This document shows positions 1 to 11,567 of a stretch of DNA of 32,346 nt, piece after piece. Within the stretch, counting starts at the first letter, position 1. Each line of letters opens with the position of its first letter. The notes under the pieces were generated by a model. That model made no database searches, had not been told where the DNA came from, and saw only the letters and a program-made list of their open reading frames with translations. Made by a program: the position numbers and the translations under genes. Source of the stretch: an uncultured Flavobacteriales bacterium (GTDB lineage: Bacteria; Bacteroidota; Bacteroidia; Flavobacteriales_D; CAJJDF01); assembly GCA_938009745.1 (NCBI GenBank), contig CALLII010000123.1:1-32346 (forward strand), written 5' to 3'.

Positions 1-131
1 TAAATTTTAAACAAAGTTAAGCGTTTTTATTTTTTTTTAAATCACTGTTAATAAATAGATTGTTTTTTTATTTTATAAAATGGGTTACTTTTGAGTAACC
101 AAATTGTATCTCTTATTATAAGGTATAACCT

Positions 132-1040
132 ATGACAAAAATTATTTTTCTGGCAACTTTTGGGTTATTCTGCCTATTTTCTCTTCCCTCTTTTGGACAA
201 GAAGCTATAGAAACACCCCAACGTTTTGGACAGTTTTACAACAATCCAATGATGAATATTGCTAGAAATGGGCTAACCTCTAAAATTGAAGCTAGACTAG
301 ATAATCAAAGAACAGCAGGTGGTTTTGCAGGATCGTCCACTTCGTATGCCAGCTTTTTATATAACAACAGTACTAGAAAACACAAAAACATCTACGGGCT
401 TTATGTGTATAACGATAATGAAGGTGATTTCATTTCAAGGCAAAGAGTTTTATTAAGTTACTCCCGTCATCAAAAAATCTCCAGAAATGTTTTTTTATCT
501 GTTGGTCTCTCTTCTGGAATAAGTTTATACGGTATAAAACCTTCGGCAACTACACCCGCCTATTCCGATAATTCCTTCGAGGGAAATGCAAGTTTATTGA
601 TGTACAGTAAAAAATCTCAAATAGGACTTTCGGTAAATCAATTTAGTAATAGTACTATGCAACCGGCTTCTCAAATTTTGAGATTAGCACGTCACTATTA
701 TTTATTTGGTCAACAAGATTATGATATTTATTCTGATCTAAAAATGTCATCCAATGTATTTGTCCAATATATGAATGTACCTCCAAATACCAGATTAAAT
801 AAATTGAATTTTGGTTTTTCGCAAAGAGTATATCTAAATATTATATTGGTTGGCGTAGGTATAGAGAGAGATGCAGCTACTGCAATTATTGGATTAAACA
901 ATTTAAAATTTGGACAAAACGCGATTGATTTTGATTTTTCTTATCGCTTGCCTTTTGCAAAAACGAACGCAATAAATGTTAACTTATTAGAACTTCACCT
1001 TAAATATCGATTAATTAAAGATAAAGGGGTTACTTTTTAA
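132..1040 (+). CDS. PorP/SprF family type IX secretion system membrane protein
   Basis: Signal peptide (MTKIIFLATFGLFCLFSLPSFGQ), then an early FYNNPMMNIA segment and outer-membrane beta-strand pattern ending LHLKYRLIKDKGVTF, typical of PorP/SprF proteins; followed by a PKD/CTD cargo gene. Confidence 0.85.
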   Translation: MTKIIFLATFGLFCLFSLPSFGQEAIETPQRFGQFYNNPMMNIARNGLTSKIEARLDNQRTAGGFAGSSTSYASFLYNNSTRKHKNIYGLYVYNDNEGDFISRQRVLLSYSRHQKISRNVFLSVGLSSGISLYGIKPSATTPAYSDNSFEGNASLLMYSKKSQIGLSVNQFSNSTMQPASQILRLARHYYLFGQQDYDIYSDLKMSSNVFVQYMNVPPNTRLNKLNFGFSQRVYLNIILVGVGIERDAATAIIGLNNLKFGQNAIDFDFSYRLPFAKTNAINVNLLELHLKYRLIKDKGVTF

Positions 1041-1085
1041 AAGTGGCATTGTATTAGATATAACTGAGGTAATAAAACGATTATT

Positions 1086-2813
1086 ATGAAACAATTTAAA
1101 TATAGCTTATTGGCGTTCCTGCTGATTCTCTTTTTCCAAAAAGAGGTTGGGGCTCAGTGTCAAGCGGGCTTTTCTTATATTAATACTGGGAATACCTTTA
1201 ATTTCACTTCTGGTTGGTCAGGAGTAATGCCATCTTTTAGCTGGAATTTTGGTGATGGTAACACAGGAACTGGAGCTTCTACTTCAAATACTTATACAAC
1301 TAATGGGATTTATAAAGTAACACTTATTATACAAAAACCTGGTTGTATTGACAGTGCTATTCATTGGATAGCAGTAAATGGAGGAACTTGTCCAGTTACA
1401 GCTGGTATTTATACGGATGGAAGTAATTCTTTTATTAAGCAATTTAATTTTTCTGGAACCGGAGATAATCCTACAACAAGGTACTTATGGTACTTTGGTG
1501 ATGGGCAAACAAGCCCTGTTCAAGATCCAACTCATAGTTATTCGAGTGCCGATTACAACCATGTTTCTTTAATTGCTACTGATACATCTGGATGTAGTTC
1601 AAGTGCAGCAGCTGCGGTATCAATATGTATGATTTTAGCGAATTTTGATGATAGTATTGTTGGATTAAGTCATTACTTGACGTCAACTTCAATAACTCCT
1701 TCCGCAACTGCAACATACAATTGGGATTTTGGTGATGGGAACTTTGGAACTGGGCAAACAACTAACCATACCTATGCTGTGGCAGGAAACTATAGAATAA
1801 CATTATCAGTTAATGATGGTGCTTGTTTTGACAGTACTTCTAAACCTGCAAGTTGTAATTTAAAAGCAGGTTTTACATGGCTTCAGACTTCATGTAATAG
1901 TTATGCTTTTAATTCCTCTCAAAGCACTGGAACAACTCCTGGAGTTACATATTCTTGGAGTTTTGGTGATGGAGTAACAGATACAGCTATTAATCCATTT
2001 CATACATATACAAGTAATGGGAGATATAATGTTTTTTTATTACTAACGGACTCTGGAGGTTGTTCTGATATTGTAACTGACTCTATAAATGTTAATGTAA
2101 TGAATGCTGCTTTCACATACACTACAAACCAATTAACAAGTAATTTTACCTCTACAACAACAGGAAATAGCATTAATTCTACATATAATTGGGATTTTGG
2201 TGATGGAAATTTTGATGTAGGCCAATCTACTTCACACACATACAGCAGTAATGGAAACTATTTAGTGAAACTAACAGTTATAGATTCTGTTAACTCATTT
2301 GTTTGTTTGGATACTTTTACTCAATTAATTTCTGTCCAAAATACCCCTTGTACATTTAATACATCCTTTTCTGATAGCATAAATGGTACTAATGTAACAT
2401 TCCAATCAACAACAGTTGGAGTTTCAACTACAGCAACATACGCTTGGGATTTTGGTGATGGAAACAATGGAGCTGGACAACAAGTATCTCACACATACAA
2501 TTCACAAGGCTTATTTAATGTGAAACTGGTAATTAGTGACTCTACCTGTCAAGATTCGGCAACTAGGTTAATTAGTATTACTGCTAATGTATTCACTCCA
2601 AATGGAGATGGAATTGATGACGTTTTTAGCATCCCTTGTGGTTCTGCGGGAGGATTAGTTTACAACAGATTTGGAACTTTAGTTAAAACTTTGGCCCCTG
2701 GTTCGTTAGTTTGGGATGGATCAAATAACAGTTCAGGACTAGAGCCAACAGGACTCTATTTCATAATCTGTAATGGTTCAGCAACTCCAATATCAGTTAC
2801 ACTTATAAGATAA
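1086..2813 (+). CDS. Secreted PKD-repeat protein with T9SS type B C-terminal sorting domain
   Basis: Signal peptide; six PKD repeats (W.FGDG ... H.Y...G.Y.V.L); C-terminus NVFTPNGDGIDDVF...VYNRFGTLV...WDGSNNSSG...GLYF...VTLIR matches the gliding-motility-associated/type B CTD pattern. Confidence 0.9.
   Translation: MKQFKYSLLAFLLILFFQKEVGAQCQAGFSYINTGNTFNFTSGWSGVMPSFSWNFGDGNTGTGASTSNTYTTNGIYKVTLIIQKPGCIDSAIHWIAVNGGTCPVTAGIYTDGSNSFIKQFNFSGTGDNPTTRYLWYFGDGQTSPVQDPTHSYSSADYNHVSLIATDTSGCSSSAAAAVSICMILANFDDSIVGLSHYLTSTSITPSATATYNWDFGDGNFGTGQTTNHTYAVAGNYRITLSVNDGACFDSTSKPASCNLKAGFTWLQTSCNSYAFNSSQSTGTTPGVTYSWSFGDGVTDTAINPFHTYTSNGRYNVFLLLTDSGGCSDIVTDSINVNVMNAAFTYTTNQLTSNFTSTTTGNSINSTYNWDFGDGNFDVGQSTSHTYSSNGNYLVKLTVIDSVNSFVCLDTFTQLISVQNTPCTFNTSFSDSINGTNVTFQSTTVGVSTTATYAWDFGDGNNGAGQQVSHTYNSQGLFNVKLVISDSTCQDSATRLISITANVFTPNGDGIDDVFSIPCGSAGGLVYNRFGTLVKTLAPGSLVWDGSNNSSGLEPTGLYFIICNGSATPISVTLIR
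1236..2550 (+). repeat. Six tandem PKD repeat units; near-identical DNA core tgggattttggtgatggRaa at about 1722, 2190 and 2445
   Basis: Repeated protein motif W(N/D)FGDG and conserved nucleotide core gggattttggtgatgg seen three times. Confidence 0.8.
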
Positions 2814-2867
2814 TAGTTATGAAGACGGTTTACTCACATATTCGCTTTCTCAAAATGGTTAATAAAC

Positions 2868-3446
2868 ATGGGTAAATCGTCTTATACTAATATCGAGGTT
2901 ATAGAGGCCATTAAAAATAACAAAGCAGATACTGTTTTGTTGTATTTATATAAAAATCTAGAACCAAAAATTAGAAAATGGATAACAAGTAATAGTGGCT
3001 CAAAAGAAGAAGCTCAGGATATATTTCAGGATTCTATCTTGGTGTTTTATTCTTATGTAACGAAAGATAAATTTGAAGTAGAGTCGAACATTGAGGCTTT
3101 CATTTTTAGAATAGCCAAAAACAAATGGATTAATTACGTAAAAAAAGAAGGTAAAACAACAACTATAAAAGAAGACATAGCTATAAATATGGAGCCTAGT
3201 TCATCTCAGATAAACAATAGTAACCAAGTTATTATTAATGAATTATTAGAAAAACTAGGAAACATTTGCAAAGAGATACTTACCTATACCATATTTTATA
3301 ATTTAAGTATGGAGGATGTTTGTTCTCGGTTAGGGTTTAATAATCCTAATACCGCTAAAACGAAAAACTACAAGTGTAAACAAAGATTAAAAAACTTAAT
3401 AAACGATAACCCAAGGATAAAACAGCAGCTTTCAAATGCAAGATAA
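2868..3446 (+). CDS. ECF-like sigma-70 family RNA polymerase sigma factor
   Basis: Region 2-like segment (EEAQDIFQDSILVFYSYV...IEAFIFRIAKNKWINYVKKE) and region 4-like HTH (LSMEDVCSRLGFNNPNTAKTKNYKCKQRLKNLI). Confidence 0.85.
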   Translation: MGKSSYTNIEVIEAIKNNKADTVLLYLYKNLEPKIRKWITSNSGSKEEAQDIFQDSILVFYSYVTKDKFEVESNIEAFIFRIAKNKWINYVKKEGKTTTIKEDIAINMEPSSSQINNSNQVIINELLEKLGNICKEILTYTIFYNLSMEDVCSRLGFNNPNTAKTKNYKCKQRLKNLINDNPRIKQQLSNAR

Positions 3447-4548
3447 TTTTAATACATACTCACAAATCCAAGATTACTTAAATGGAAATTTAAGTACTGA
3501 GGAAAGTAGTGCCTTTGCAAAAGAGCTGGAAACCAATCCAGAGCTTCAAGCCTTGGTGGATGATTATGGCTTGGTTGATACTCTTATCGAACAAAATGAA
3601 TTATTTTCGGTTAATTCTACACTTACTCAAATTCATAAAACTACCTTAAGAAGAAAAAGAATTGCAAAAGGATTAATAATAGCTTCTGTAGCTCTACTAG
3701 CTATTGCTGGAGCACTATTTATTTCTAAAATCGATAAATCTGCAGACAAAGTTGTACTTGCAACCGAAACTAACAAAGCAGAAGACTTTTTAGTAGAAGC
3801 TACTCCTTACAAAGTTATCGATTCCATGAGCGAAGTGGAACTTAATTCTGCTATAAAAGAAAGCAGAATTGCTCTGGAAAAGATTGAAAAAACTGATACT
3901 GTTGTTGATGTTGAGCCTAAAGATATTCCTGAAACAATTTTGCCTAAAAAAGATTCAGTAGTAAAACCTATCTCTGTTCTACCTACAAAAGTTGATTCTG
4001 TAATTCAAGAACCTCAGACTTCAAATAATGATACTGTTAAAGTAAGAAAGCCTTGTGAAATTAAATTAACTGCCGAAAATATTTCTTTAACAAGCACTTG
4101 CCAAGAGAAAAGATCGGGAGCTATTCTGTTTACTAATACAGAATCAGATTATTTATATTCTATTAATAATCAAGAAAGTTATGCCAAAAACCCTCTTTTC
4201 AATTACTTGGAGGAAGGAAGATATTTAATCTCCATCAAAAAAGACCAATGCGAAAGCGAACCAATAGAAGTTACTATTGAAGGATACCAATGTAATTATG
4301 TTATTGATCCTGCTAACTTAATTTTCTTTGAAAAATCACTTATTAAATTTCAGGAAGAAAATACAGTAGAAGTATTTATATTCAATAGATATGGAGTAAT
4401 GGTATACACCAAAACTTTACCTACAACTGAAAATTTTACTTGGGATGGAAGCGCTAGTAATAACACCCAAGCACCAATGGGTAATTATACATATCTCATA
4501 AAAAGTGGGCAAAAGATTGCAAAAGGAGAGATTACTGTTATTAGATAA
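3436..4548 (+). CDS. Membrane-anchored anti-sigma-like protein with periplasmic SprB-like repeat and CHU_C/type-B-CTD-like C-terminus
   Basis: Overlaps the sigma gene by 11 nt; N-terminal YLNGNLSTEESSAFAKELETNPELQALVDDY (Bacteroidota anti-sigma N-terminal style), one TM (GLIIASVALLAIAGALFI), about 105-aa linker, SprB-like unit, C-terminal VFIFNRYGVMVYTK...WDGSASNNTQAPMGNYTYLIK...GEITVIR. Confidence 0.75.
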   Translation: MQDNFNTYSQIQDYLNGNLSTEESSAFAKELETNPELQALVDDYGLVDTLIEQNELFSVNSTLTQIHKTTLRRKRIAKGLIIASVALLAIAGALFISKIDKSADKVVLATETNKAEDFLVEATPYKVIDSMSEVELNSAIKESRIALEKIEKTDTVVDVEPKDIPETILPKKDSVVKPISVLPTKVDSVIQEPQTSNNDTVKVRKPCEIKLTAENISLTSTCQEKRSGAILFTNTESDYLYSINNQESYAKNPLFNYLEEGRYLISIKKDQCESEPIEVTIEGYQCNYVIDPANLIFFEKSLIKFQEENTVEVFIFNRYGVMVYTKTLPTTENFTWDGSASNNTQAPMGNYTYLIKSGQKIAKGEITVIR

Positions 4549-4749: not shown

Positions 4750-7700
4750 ATGATTCAAAATATCCTTAAAAAATTACTAGGAGACAGCAAAAAAAATGTT
4801 TTTAAAGACATTAATCCTTTGGTAGACCTTACTAAAGAAGCTTTTGCTAAACTTCAGACTTTATCTAATGATGAATTAAGAGGGAAAACTCAAGAATTTA
4901 AATCTAAAATTAACGCTTACACAGCTGATGTTGAAGATGAAATTGCTACTCTTAAAGCCAAAACTCAGGACGAGAATACAGATGTAGATGCTAAAGATGA
5001 AATTTTTCAGGAAATTGAAAAACTAGAATTATTATCTAATGAAAAATTAGAAGAAGTATTGTTAGAAATACTTCCAGAAGCATTTGCTGTAGTTAAAGAA
5101 ACCGCTAGAAGATTTAATGAAAACGAAGAGATTGAGGTAACTGCTACTGAAATGGATAGGTATGTTTCTACCAAAAAAGATGCTGTTGAAATAGATGGAG
5201 ACAAAGCCATTTGGTTTAATTCATGGACTGCAGGAGGAACACAAGTAACGTGGGCAATGGTTCACTATGATGTACAATTAATTGGTGGTGTTGCACTACA
5301 CTCTGGAAAAATTGCTGAGATGCAAACAGGAGAGGGAAAAACATTAGTTGCCACCTTGCCAGTATACCTAAATGCACTTGCAGGAAAAGGAGTTCACATG
5401 ATTACAGTGAACGATTACCTTGCAAAAAGAGATAGTGAATGGATGGGAACTCTTTATGAGTTTCATGGGTTATCAGTAGATTGTATCGACAAGCATCAAC
5501 CAAACTCTGACGAAAGAAGAAAAGCGTACAATGCTGACATTACTTTTGGAACAAACAATGAATTTGGATTCGATTACTTGAGAGATAACATGAGTAGTGA
5601 TGTAGATTCTTTGGTACAAAGAAAACACCACTTTGCTATTATAGATGAAGTAGATTCAGTTTTAATTGATGATGCAAGAACTCCATTAATTATATCTGGG
5701 CCAACACCTAAAGGTGATGAGCAGGAATTTACAGCTCTTAAACCAAAAGTAGAAACACTATTTGCTGCCCAAAGAAAACTAGCTAAAGAAAACCTTCAAA
5801 TTGCAAAAGAAAATATTGCAAAAGCAGAAGATGAATCTTTGGACAAAAAAGCTAGAGCTGAACATACTAAAGTTGGTCAAATGGCTTTATTACGCTCTCA
5901 CAGAGGAATGCCAAAAAATCCTGATTTAATTAAATATTTAAGTGAGCCAGGAATTAAAGTTCAACTTCAAAAGGTAGAGAATTTCTACATGCAAGATCAA
6001 AGTAAAGAAATGATCAAGGTAGATAGAGAACTTTATTTTGTAATCGAAGAAAAAAACAATCAAGTTGATTTAACCGAAAAAGGAATTGATTTAATTTCTG
6101 GAGTTGAGGACCCAAATTTCTATATTTTACCTGATTTAGGTGGGCTTTTTGCAGAAGTAGAAAACAAGAAACTTGGAGTAGATGATACTATTGCCAAAAA
6201 AGATGAAATCATCAGAGATTACACAGTTAAAGCCCAAAGAATTCACTCTATCAATCAATTACTTAAAGCCTACACCTTATTCGAAAAAGATACCGAATAC
6301 ATTATGGTGGATGGAAAAGTGAAAATTGTAGATGAGCAAACAGGTCGTGTAATGGAAGGAAGACGATATTCTGACGGACTTCACCAAGCGATTGAAGCTA
6401 AGGAGAATGTAAAAATTGAAGCGTCTACTCAAACGTATGCTACGATTACATTACAGAACTATTTTAGAATGTACCACAAACTTGCTGGTATGACAGGAAC
6501 TGCAGAAACTGAAGCTGGTGAATTCTGGGATATTTATAAATTGGATGTGGTTGTAATCCCTACAAATAAACCAATTGCTAGAGATGATCGTGAGGATTTG
6601 GTATACAAAACAACTAAAGAAAAATACTTTGCTGTAAGTGATGAAATTGTAAAGCTAGTAGGTGAAAATCGTCCAGTATTGGTAGGAACAACTTCGGTAG
6701 AAATTTCGGAATACTTAAGTAGCTTATTAAATTCTAAAGGAATTAAGCACAATGTACTAAACGCAAAAAAACACCAACAAGAAGCAGATATTGTTGCAGG
6801 TGCTGGTAAAGCTGGAGCTGTAACCATTGCCACAAACATGGCAGGAAGGGGAACAGACATTAAACTTCAAGCTGGAGTTAAAGAAGCTGGAGGTTTAGCA
6901 ATTATTGGTACGGAACGTCACGATTCGAGACGAGTTGATAGACAATTAAGAGGAAGAGCAGGAAGACAAGGAGATCCAGGATCTTCTCAGTTTTTCATCT
7001 CTTTAGAAGATAACTTAATGAGACTTTTTGGTTCGGAAAGAATTGGAAAAATGATGGACAGAATGGGATTCAAAGAAGGTGAAGTAATTCAGCATTCTAT
7101 GATTTCTAAATCTATTGAAAGAGCTCAGAAAAAAGTAGAAGAAAACAACTTTGGGATACGTAAGCACTTGCTTGAATATGATGATGTGATGAATGCCCAA
7201 AGAAATTCAATCTACTCGAAAAGAAAGAATGCTCTGTACGGAGATAAACTTGATTTAGATATCGCTAATACGCTTTACGAAATTTCTGAAAGTGTAGTTT
7301 ATACGGCTCGTGATGCGGAAGATTTTGAAGGATTCCAATTGGAATTAATTAGAATCTTATCTATTCCTTCGCCAGTTAACGAAGTTGATTTCAACAAAAT
7401 TAACGAGCAAGAGTTAGTAGAAATGGTCTATGATAAAGCTAAAGAAGCTTACAATAGAAAGTCAGAATTAATGGCTTCTCAAACTTATCCTGTTATTGCA
7501 AATGTGTATCAGAACGAATCTAATTCGTACGAAAATATCATTATCCCAATTACAGATGGAAGCAAAAGCACTCAGCTACTAGCTAACCTAAAAGATTCAT
7601 TTGAGGCTAAAGGAAAGAACTTAACAAAATTGCTAGAAAGAAACATTACTCTTGGTGTAATTGATAACGAGTGGAAAGAGCATTTGAGAGAAATGGATGA

Positions 7701-8139
7701 CTTGAGGCAATCGGTAAGAGGAGCACAATACGAGCAAAAAGATCCTTTACTTATTTATAAGTTAGAGTCTTACGAGTTATTTAAGCAAATGGTAAGCAAA
7801 GTCAACAAAGAAATTATTTCTTTCTTGATGAAAGCTAACCTACCTCAAAACGAAGGGGTAGAACAAACGAATAATGAGAAATTAAGAACAAAATCTCAGC
7901 CTAAATTACAAACAGGAAGAACTGATATTGGGGCTGGAACTGAAGCTAACCAACAAGTTGCGAGACAGCAACAAAATGGGGAAAGAGTAAAACAACAGCC
8001 AGTAGTAAATGAAGCTAAAATTGGAAGAAACGACCGAGTTCAAATCATAAACTTGAGAAGTGGAGAAACCAAAGAGGTAAAATACAAGCAAGCCGAACCA
8101 CTTATCAAAGAAGGTACTTGGCAAATGGCTCAAAAATAA
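4750..8139 (+). CDS. secA: Preprotein translocase subunit SecA
   Basis: 1129 aa; AEMQTGEGKTLVATLPVYLNAL, VHMITVNDYLAKRD, IIDEVDSVLIDDARTPLIISG, MAGRGTDIKL, GTERHDSRRVDRQLRGRAGRQGDPGSSQFFISLEDNLMR motifs. Confidence 0.98.
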   Translation: MIQNILKKLLGDSKKNVFKDINPLVDLTKEAFAKLQTLSNDELRGKTQEFKSKINAYTADVEDEIATLKAKTQDENTDVDAKDEIFQEIEKLELLSNEKLEEVLLEILPEAFAVVKETARRFNENEEIEVTATEMDRYVSTKKDAVEIDGDKAIWFNSWTAGGTQVTWAMVHYDVQLIGGVALHSGKIAEMQTGEGKTLVATLPVYLNALAGKGVHMITVNDYLAKRDSEWMGTLYEFHGLSVDCIDKHQPNSDERRKAYNADITFGTNNEFGFDYLRDNMSSDVDSLVQRKHHFAIIDEVDSVLIDDARTPLIISGPTPKGDEQEFTALKPKVETLFAAQRKLAKENLQIAKENIAKAEDESLDKKARAEHTKVGQMALLRSHRGMPKNPDLIKYLSEPGIKVQLQKVENFYMQDQSKEMIKVDRELYFVIEEKNNQVDLTEKGIDLISGVEDPNFYILPDLGGLFAEVENKKLGVDDTIAKKDEIIRDYTVKAQRIHSINQLLKAYTLFEKDTEYIMVDGKVKIVDEQTGRVMEGRRYSDGLHQAIEAKENVKIEASTQTYATITLQNYFRMYHKLAGMTGTAETEAGEFWDIYKLDVVVIPTNKPIARDDREDLVYKTTKEKYFAVSDEIVKLVGENRPVLVGTTSVEISEYLSSLLNSKGIKHNVLNAKKHQQEADIVAGAGKAGAVTIATNMAGRGTDIKLQAGVKEAGGLAIIGTERHDSRRVDRQLRGRAGRQGDPGSSQFFISLEDNLMRLFGSERIGKMMDRMGFKEGEVIQHSMISKSIERAQKKVEENNFGIRKHLLEYDDVMNAQRNSIYSKRKNALYGDKLDLDIANTLYEISESVVYTARDAEDFEGFQLELIRILSIPSPVNEVDFNKINEQELVEMVYDKAKEAYNRKSELMASQTYPVIANVYQNESNSYENIIIPITDGSKSTQLLANLKDSFEAKGKNLTKLLERNITLGVIDNEWKEHLREMDDLRQSVRGAQYEQKDPLLIYKLESYELFKQMVSKVNKEIISFLMKANLPQNEGVEQTNNEKLRTKSQPKLQTGRTDIGAGTEANQQVARQQQNGERVKQQPVVNEAKIGRNDRVQIINLRSGETKEVKYKQAEPLIKEGTWQMAQK

Positions 8140-10904: not shown

Positions 10905-11567
10905 ATGAAAAAAATAGGTACAATAATTCCACTTGCTTGGCCAGATACCCCTGTAATTCAGGAGGGTAAATGGTATGATGGAATTATGCGTGCTCTTGGG
11001 TTTCTAAAAAATGGGTTTTACAAAGCTGGACATGCAGCTTTAGTTTTGGCTAATCACGAAACTAAAGAGTTCTATTACTATGATTTTGGAAGGTATCAAA
11101 CTCCAAAAAAACATGGAAGAGTTAGGGATAATTTTACCGATCCTGATTTAATTTTGCATACAAAAGTAGAATTAGAAAACGGAAACATAACCAACATAGA
11201 AGAGCTAATGAGCGAATTAGCTTCTTTGGAAGCAACACACGGAGAAGGAAGATTAATTGCCTCAACTAAGGTTGTTTTGGACATTGATAAAGCATTTGCA
11301 AAAGCGAAAGCCATGCAAAATAGAGAAGCCATAATTTATGGTCCATTTAATATTGGCGGAACTAATTGCTCGCGTTTTGTAGCGCAGACGGCAAAAGTCA
11401 GTAATTTAGGTTGGTATAAAAATATACTTATTCGTATTCCTTATACCATAACGCACACAACTATTACTAACGTAAAAATCATTAACGACAAGCGGTATTA
11501 TTACGAACTGAAAAATGGAGTTTTTACCAAACGAATGAACATCCTTTACCCTTTGATAAAAAAATAA
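10905..11567 (+). CDS. Conserved hypothetical protein; possible permuted papain-fold (LRAT/NlpC-P60-like) protein
   Basis: GHAALVLANHETKEFYYYDFGRY followed about 125 aa later by TNCSRFVAQTAK, a His-then-Cys order similar to LRAT-type proteins. Confidence 0.6.
   Translation: MKKIGTIIPLAWPDTPVIQEGKWYDGIMRALGFLKNGFYKAGHAALVLANHETKEFYYYDFGRYQTPKKHGRVRDNFTDPDLILHTKVELENGNITNIEELMSELASLEATHGEGRLIASTKVVLDIDKAFAKAKAMQNREAIIYGPFNIGGTNCSRFVAQTAKVSNLGWYKNILIRIPYTITHTTITNVKIINDKRYYYELKNGVFTKRMNILYPLIKK

Follow-up and report, generated by a model that had tools for sequence, protein, structure and literature searches.

An ECF sigma/anti-sigma pair with a modified type B CTD on the anti-sigma factor: a candidate T9SS-shuttle checkpoint in Bacteroidota

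Introduction

Why should an anti-sigma factor end in a domain that resembles the export tag of a T9SS cargo? This question is raised by a locus of an uncultured Flavobacteriales bacterium, located on a stretch of 32,346 nucleotides (the window, meaning the whole stretch of DNA analysed) that makes up the complete contig C123 of an assembly of 2.5 Mb in 165 contigs. The first five genes encode, in this order, a PorP/SprF protein, a PKD-repeat type B cargo, an ECF sigma factor, an anti-sigma factor and SecA. PorP/SprF proteins are the cognate shuttles and anchors of type B cargo (PMC12618676, PMC9143113); the T9SS core gene sprA was found in the same genome, which revealed 43 CHU_C matches. Trans-envelope anti-sigma factors (Fec, Dma), CTD proteins acting on a T9SS sigma factor (PorA) and ECF promoters before T9SS genes are already known. 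For a T9SS CTD domain on an anti-sigma factor, no description was found in the literature searched, most subscription papers and bioRxiv being outside its scope.

Results

The features of the locus are as follows.

132..1040, + strand: PorP/SprF family outer-membrane shuttle, 302 aa (PF11751, 73 bits)
1086..2813, + strand: cargo, a secreted PKD-repeat protein with a type B CTD, 575 aa (PKD_4 243.7 bits, CHU_C 37 bits)
2583..2810, + strand: type B CTD of the cargo, FTPNGDGIDD motif present
2868..3446, + strand: ECF sigma factor, 192 aa (TIGR02937 and PF04542 above cut-off)
3436..4548, + strand: putative anti-sigma factor with a CHU_C-like end, 370 aa
3436..3669, + strand: anti-sigma-type helical N-terminus, cytoplasmic, aa 1-78 (profile of aa 1-98)
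3670..3726, + strand: transmembrane (TM) helix, aa 79-97 (hydropathy 2.46; helix in the model)
3727..4053, + strand: disordered periplasmic tether, about aa 98-206 (pLDDT < 50 at aa 99-204)
4054..4308, + strand: SprB-like beta domain, about aa 207-291 (model; SprB 2.2e-6 in one relative)
4309..4545, + strand: modified type B CTD, about aa 292-370, without FTPNGDGxND
4750-8139: SecA

Further downstream, a 220-aa protein (window 10905-11564) matched PF25218 (type VI secretion effector TseH-like) with 155.5 bits, and no type VI genes were seen among the few ORFs scanned around it.

Sigma and anti-sigma genes share an overlap of 11 nt, and the sigma product matched TIGR02937 (sigma70-ECF) with 52.8 bits (cut-off 42.9) and PF04542 with 29.7 bits (cut-off 24), so that the original prediction of an ORF at 3436 overlapping an ECF-like sigma gene is borne out by both the ORFs and the profile matches. 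An AlphaFold2 model of the anti-sigma factor displayed helices at 2-98, a low-confidence stretch at 99-204 (pLDDT about 30) and two beta domains at about 207-291 and 295-370 (pLDDT 77-93). The hydropathy maximum marks a single TM at 79-97 and, with a helical, hydrophilic N-terminus and no other TM, the protein carries no cleavable Sec signal peptide. The layout first read from the letters, namely an anti-sigma-like N-terminus, one TM and a linker of about 105 aa, agrees with this model of helices, TM and a disordered tether of ~108 aa.

A profile of aa 1-98, searched against 1,296 ORFs from the loci retrieved, matched outside the family almost only ORFs directly 3' of ECF sigma genes; many of these loci had been picked via sigma similarity, which makes the link between N-terminus and sigma factor a strong association and no independent proof. 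Proteins sharing this N-terminus bear very different C-terminal parts. In two ORFs (L223:6566-7654 and L225:2519-3646) a similar N-terminus is followed by an apparent trypsin-type protease domain with a GNSGGP / GNSGAP motif, a possible anti-sigma-protease fusion. Curated anti-sigma models matched the N-terminus weakly (NF052375, E 0.048; zf-HC2, E 0.017-0.078). Taken together, the sequences support a classification of the products of 2868-3446 and 3436-4548 as a sigma/anti-sigma pair, which would presumably bind each other.

The C-terminus of the anti-sigma factor scored 34.6 bits against PF13585 CHU_C (cut-off 27, E 2.2e-8), 29.8 bits against PF13860 FlgD_ig (cut-off 27) and 27.5 bits against TIGR04131 (cut-off 35). 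CHU_C was detected at some level in all 11 aligned anti-sigma factors, and four relatives scanned one by one each remained under the PF13585 cut-off. PDB sequence and fold searches yielded generic beta/Ig-like proteins, designed or WD-40 propellers, FlgD, GhpA and PorU, with no type B CTD among the matches. Of the close match to a type B CTD that had been proposed originally, the PF13585 hit, the quoted motifs (NRxG, WDG, G.Y and IR, all found in the window protein) and the confidently modelled beta domains stand, while FTPNGDGxND is absent, TIGR04131 stays below its cut-off and the fold search returned no type B CTD. The SprB-like unit proposed alongside is a fair but weak assignment, as the window protein does not reach Pfam SprB (PF13573) and a single one of the 11 aligned members matches it (2.2e-6).

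The CHU_C match of the window anti-sigma factor begins at profile position 25-26, past the FTPNGDGxND segment. By regular expression, this motif was found in none of the 12 anti-sigma factors of this family (type 1) versus 7/8 cargos of the same cassettes. It was also present in 24/24 cargos of the own genome, a set chosen partly by that motif, and the unbiased view of the loss is therefore given by the start positions of the CHU_C matches: in the own genome, strong ones start at profile positions 2-3 and weaker ones by 16, and only the anti-sigma factor starts at 25, two contig-edge fragments aside. Most members carry a variant around P..Q..YWEIP in the place of FTPNGDGxND. Of the remaining motifs, at the extreme C-terminus, WxG and GxY are found in 12/12 type 1 proteins and a terminal R/K in 9/12, while NRxG (motif B) is kept in 3/12, including the window protein. 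In F. johnsoniae, the SprB CTD was no longer secreted when any one of its five conserved type B motifs had been mutated (PMC12618676); the text of that paper does not spell the motifs, and we infer that its loop motif A is FTPNGDGxND. The sequences support a derived type B domain without the first motif at the end of the anti-sigma factor and, given the loss of motif A and the behavior of those mutants, a role of the CTD as tethered mimic or docking domain is more likely than one as exported tag. The tethered cargo mimic envisaged at the outset is therefore retained in its type B origin, but changed insofar as the first motif is lost in 12/12 proteins.

A genome search revealed five genomes (the window, G081, G075, G177 and G471), and scanning the sigma alignment against 85,462 species genomes led to 18 loci. 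The full pair of sigma factor and CHU_C-anti-sigma factor occurs in 12 genomes including the window, comprising Flavobacteriales and other Bacteroidia MAGs, Vicingaceae, Cyclobacteriaceae, Cytophagales and Cytophagaceae, and the window sigma factor shows 38-49% identity to the other aligned cassette sigmas. The pair is rare, with 3/395 class genomes and 4/399 order genomes sampled (window counted). A survey of Bacteroidota, as suggested with the original prediction, hence recovered the fusion with a sigma gene directly upstream in 11 other genomes, which argues against chance, and an ORF or fusion artefact is ruled out by its being common to 12 genomes.

The order PorP-cargo-sigma-anti-sigma, with adjacent genes, was observed in the window, G177, L215, L217, L218 and L219. 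The halves of the cassette lie on two contigs in G075; in L213 and L214 it is cut by contig ends, with the cargo present, and in L220 PorP and cargo are on the opposite strand, adjoining the sigma/anti-sigma pair. L221 carries the pair with no PorP or cargo within about 6 kb. Against the window PorP, scores were 115-146 bits for cassette PorPs and no higher than 32.5 bits for any other PorP of the searched genomes; by these scores the cassette PorPs form their own group. PorP/SprF, type B cargo, sigma and anti-sigma factor thus form a conserved four-gene cassette.

BLAST unveiled no close orthologs within the same genus. The closest named record is Flavobacteriales MAG HE327_NSB006, with 93-94% DNA identity where aligned. 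A relic of the cassette was found in a sister-species MAG, in which L212:5796-6526 aligns to window 1-217 and 3060-3573. Window 218-3059 is deleted there, so that PorP is largely lost, and the cargo entirely, together with the N-terminus of the sigma factor; the anti-sigma match ends after residue 47, most of this protein being gone as well, and the PorP promoter motif is still there.

A first dyad search for a promoter motif performed no better than shuffles. From its output, the motif GGTTACTTT-N13-TGTA was chosen by eye among PorP-upstream sequences and then tested separately, the independent tests being the second copy before cargo genes, the match in G075, L215 and genome-wide counts. The window contains two copies.

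83..108, + strand: GGTTACTTT-N13-TGTA before PorP/SprF
1028..1053, + strand: second GGTTACTTT-N13-TGTA, before the cargo gene

The PorP-upstream motif is kept in L210, L217, L218, L219, G075 (L242/L282, spacing 14) and the L212 relic. In the window, the cargo-upstream motif reaches into the PorP ORF at its 3' end; it is intergenic in L215, L217, L218 and L219, which is why coding constraint does not explain it. With loose spacing, GGTTACTTT-N(11-14)-TGTA occurs twice in the window against 0.00 expected from window shuffles, and in 9/229 loci, all of them type 1 cassettes or the L212 relic. Twelve sites share a spacing of 13; a spacing of 14 was seen before sigma in L220 and before PorP in G075. 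The 12 are the only spacing-13 sites in 1.06 Mb of loci, none lying outside the cassettes and the L212 relic, and the spacing-13 motif was found in one of 18,009 resampled upstream regions. L221 carries a one-mismatch site 42 nt before sigma. Directly before the window sigma gene no promoter motif was detected, the only candidate being a two-mismatch site inside the cargo gene.

Genome-wide, the own genome showed three matches at loose spacing, two of which are the window sites before PorP and cargo, and a scan of G075 found the PorP gene of that genome. G177 displayed nine matches versus one for the reversed control. Four extra spacing-13 matches in this genome (L277-L280) lie 48-82 nt before genes. 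Two of these genes encode type B cargos, one of 983 aa and the other a CotH protein of 821 aa whose gene is followed by PorP/SprF; the other two encode a type A cargo and a secreted protein of 200 aa. The remaining G177 matches are within genes or away from gene starts; in this one genome, the regulon may be wider than the cassette. The best reading of these sites is that the cassette sigma factor transcribes the shuttle and cargo genes. As the motif precedes both genes in the window and in related cassettes, it is very probable that shuttle and cargo are driven by the sigma factor of their cassette, co-occurrence with the cassette being what would assign the motif to this sigma factor and not to another one. 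The predicted coupling of the sigma factor to cargo and PorP expression is accordingly backed by conserved synteny and by the motif before both genes.

CHU_C was also found on a second family of putative anti-sigma factors (type 2; L074, L075, L117, L118 and L159-L187), in which, as seen in G002 and G005, a different ECF sigma factor is followed by a protein with a TM near residue 45, a tether, PKD and CHU_C. N-terminus and sigma factor are unlike those of type 1. The tether measures 98-143 aa versus 91-120 aa in most type 1 relatives in which it was measurable. A full-length type 2 match was detected in 33 of 395 class genomes; the own genome carries two type 2 proteins at contig ends, with the 5' part cut. 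A sigma-like ORF lies directly upstream in 25/29 loci inspected, the rest being unresolved by the simple ORF caller. In more than half of the 20 loci with longer flanks a large secreted protein is next, several of these visibly having a CHU_C-type tail at the end. FTPNGDGxND is kept in 28/31 type 2 proteins and NRxG in 3/31. That two anti-sigma families differing in N-terminus and sigma factor have in common this domain and a similar tether length argues for a shared purpose. Sites resembling AGGCAACC-N15-17-CGTC before many type 2 sigma genes (L188-L207) suggest autoregulation. A type 2 regulon is not claimed from this motif, for which a genome-wide scan yielded control matches in about equal number in several genomes.

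Discussion

Gene order, domains, motif loss and promoter motif are computational observations, and regulation of the cargo by the sigma factor is well supported; the docking partner, the sensing step, proteolysis and the direction of the signal are proposed here. We suggest, at roughly even confidence, a T9SS-shuttle checkpoint in which a substrate-mimicking anti-sigma factor senses the state of the shuttle and the sigma factor drives PorP and cargo. The ECF sigma factor would transcribe both genes from GGTTACTTT-N13-TGTA promoters and would be kept at the inner membrane by the anti-sigma factor, whose tether of ~110 residues would allow the modified type B CTD to reach the outer membrane. There, this CTD would compete with that of the cargo for the cognate PorP/SprF or for the translocon behind it and, without the first secretion motif, would dock and not be exported, so that its docking state would report whether the shuttle is free or occupied. 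In the preferred direction, the anti-sigma factor would be cleaved once its CTD has docked on a shuttle that is free and ready for export; the sigma factor would be released and more PorP and cargo made, until cargo saturates the shuttle, displaces the mimic and the sigma factor is held again. The opposite sign, with backed-up cargo releasing the sigma factor, would also be possible; that a free shuttle switches the sigma factor on is preferred on functional grounds, because the cargo is in the regulon. In this way, the cell would probably make cargo and carrier only at the pace of export.

A sensor of competition fits best, since the domain is cargo-tag-like, is devoid of a motif probably needed for export and belongs to a system controlling cargo and shuttle genes. 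Against it, the CTD-like domain scores as a generic FlgD Ig-like domain too, retention of NRxG in only 3/12 proteins could mean that PorP recognition is lost as well, and the partner is not always adjacent, as evidenced by the L221 pair without PorP or cargo nearby. Moreover, the regulon is a prediction made from sequence, and its extra G177 targets stem from a single genome.

Other explanations have to be weighed against this checkpoint. The protein might be a T9SS-type dual membrane-spanning anti-sigma factor, the C-terminus of which is exported and anchored by PorP at the surface, the SprB-like domain serving as the receptor by which surface contact or an external ligand is sensed. Tether length and layout as in Dma proteins (PMC13088901), the binding of type B CTD proteins by PorP/SprF (PMC9143113) and a motif A kept in 28/31 type 2 relatives speak for it; yet motif A is absent in 12/12 type 1 proteins though all five motifs are needed for secretion of the SprB CTD (PMC12618676), the anti-sigma factor has no cleavable signal peptide, and a part of it would have to traverse the T9SS while still anchored in the inner membrane, so that we regard an exported C-terminus as unlikely.

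It also seems improbable that the C-terminal domain is no more than a periplasmic sensor of the Ig-like kind, taken from a CTD and responding to an unrelated ligand or stress, the T9SS cargo regulon then being incidental. Such an origin would suit the FlgD_ig score above cut-off, the generic Ig-like fold matches in the PDB, GhpA and PorU among them, and the quite different sensors that a similar anti-sigma N-terminus bears elsewhere, but two anti-sigma families that differ in N-terminus and sigma factor have recruited CHU_C, which in type 1 is accompanied by cargo, PorP and a dedicated promoter motif. As the anti-sigma assignment is drawn from gene position, layout and weak HMM matches (NF052375, zf-HC2), the membrane protein could in principle be an activator or chaperone of the sigma factor instead of its inhibitor; we consider this very improbable, as nearly all homologous N-termini are found directly 3' of an ECF sigma gene and are combined with varied sensors, which is the usual anti-sigma arrangement.

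In comparison with known systems, the proposed checkpoint resembles FecA-FecR-FecI, in which an outer-membrane barrel, an inner-membrane anti-sigma factor spanning the periplasm and an adjacent ECF sigma factor transcribing the barrel gene act together. Neither the anti-sigma factor nor its aligned relatives revealed a FecR Pfam match, and no TonB-dependent receptor was found in the cassette; PorP/SprF and the CTD mimic would replace the TonB-dependent receptor and the FecR domain. Similarly, the exported flagellar anti-sigma factor FlgM ties export readiness to the expression of late substrates, and here, too, an anti-sigma factor resembling an export substrate would provide that link, but FlgM is soluble and leaves the cell, whereas the window protein is predicted to be membrane tethered with a tag lacking a secretion motif.

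A comparable layout is seen in the Dma proteins of Bacteroidota (PMC13088901), displaying an N-terminal anti-sigma domain (ASD), one TM, a long disordered tether, an outer-membrane C-terminal domain and an adjacent ECF sigma gene; in the window protein, TM and tether are taken from the model and the ASD rests on association. While Dma ends in a beta barrel, the window anti-sigma factor ends in two small Ig-like beta domains, one SprB-like and one a modified type B CTD, and the predicted regulon differs in consisting of the T9SS shuttle and cargo. In PorA-PorXY-SigP of Porphyromonas gingivalis, a CTD-bearing protein likewise signals to an ECF sigma factor controlling T9SS genes (PMC7712824); PorA, however, is a surface protein of its own, carries a FimH-like domain and signals via a two-component system, whereas here the CTD-like domain is located within the anti-sigma factor and the predicted targets are one PorP and its cargo. 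The SM6 promoter set of F. psychrophilum, with a CGT box at -10, comprises an ECF/anti-sigma pair, gldN and porU (PMC9723704). It is similar in placing ECF-type promoters before T9SS genes in a flavobacterium, but targets core T9SS genes, in contrast to the window motif GGTTACTTT-N13-TGTA with shuttle and cargo as predicted targets.

We tentatively put forward, leaning somewhat to the doubtful side, that Bacteroidota have built, at least twice, anti-sigma factors reading the occupancy of a T9SS shuttle by mimicry: a tethered type B CTD would have lost a secretion motif and would compete with the cargo for PorP/SprF, so that every pair of shuttle and cargo would have an export-coupled sigma switch to itself. 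With a compact cassette, a defined promoter motif and a regulator bearing a motif-defective copy of the export tag, the matching of cargo and shuttle becomes testable with one reporter. As the type 2 architecture is widespread, the principle could extend to many Bacteroidota and their surface adhesins.
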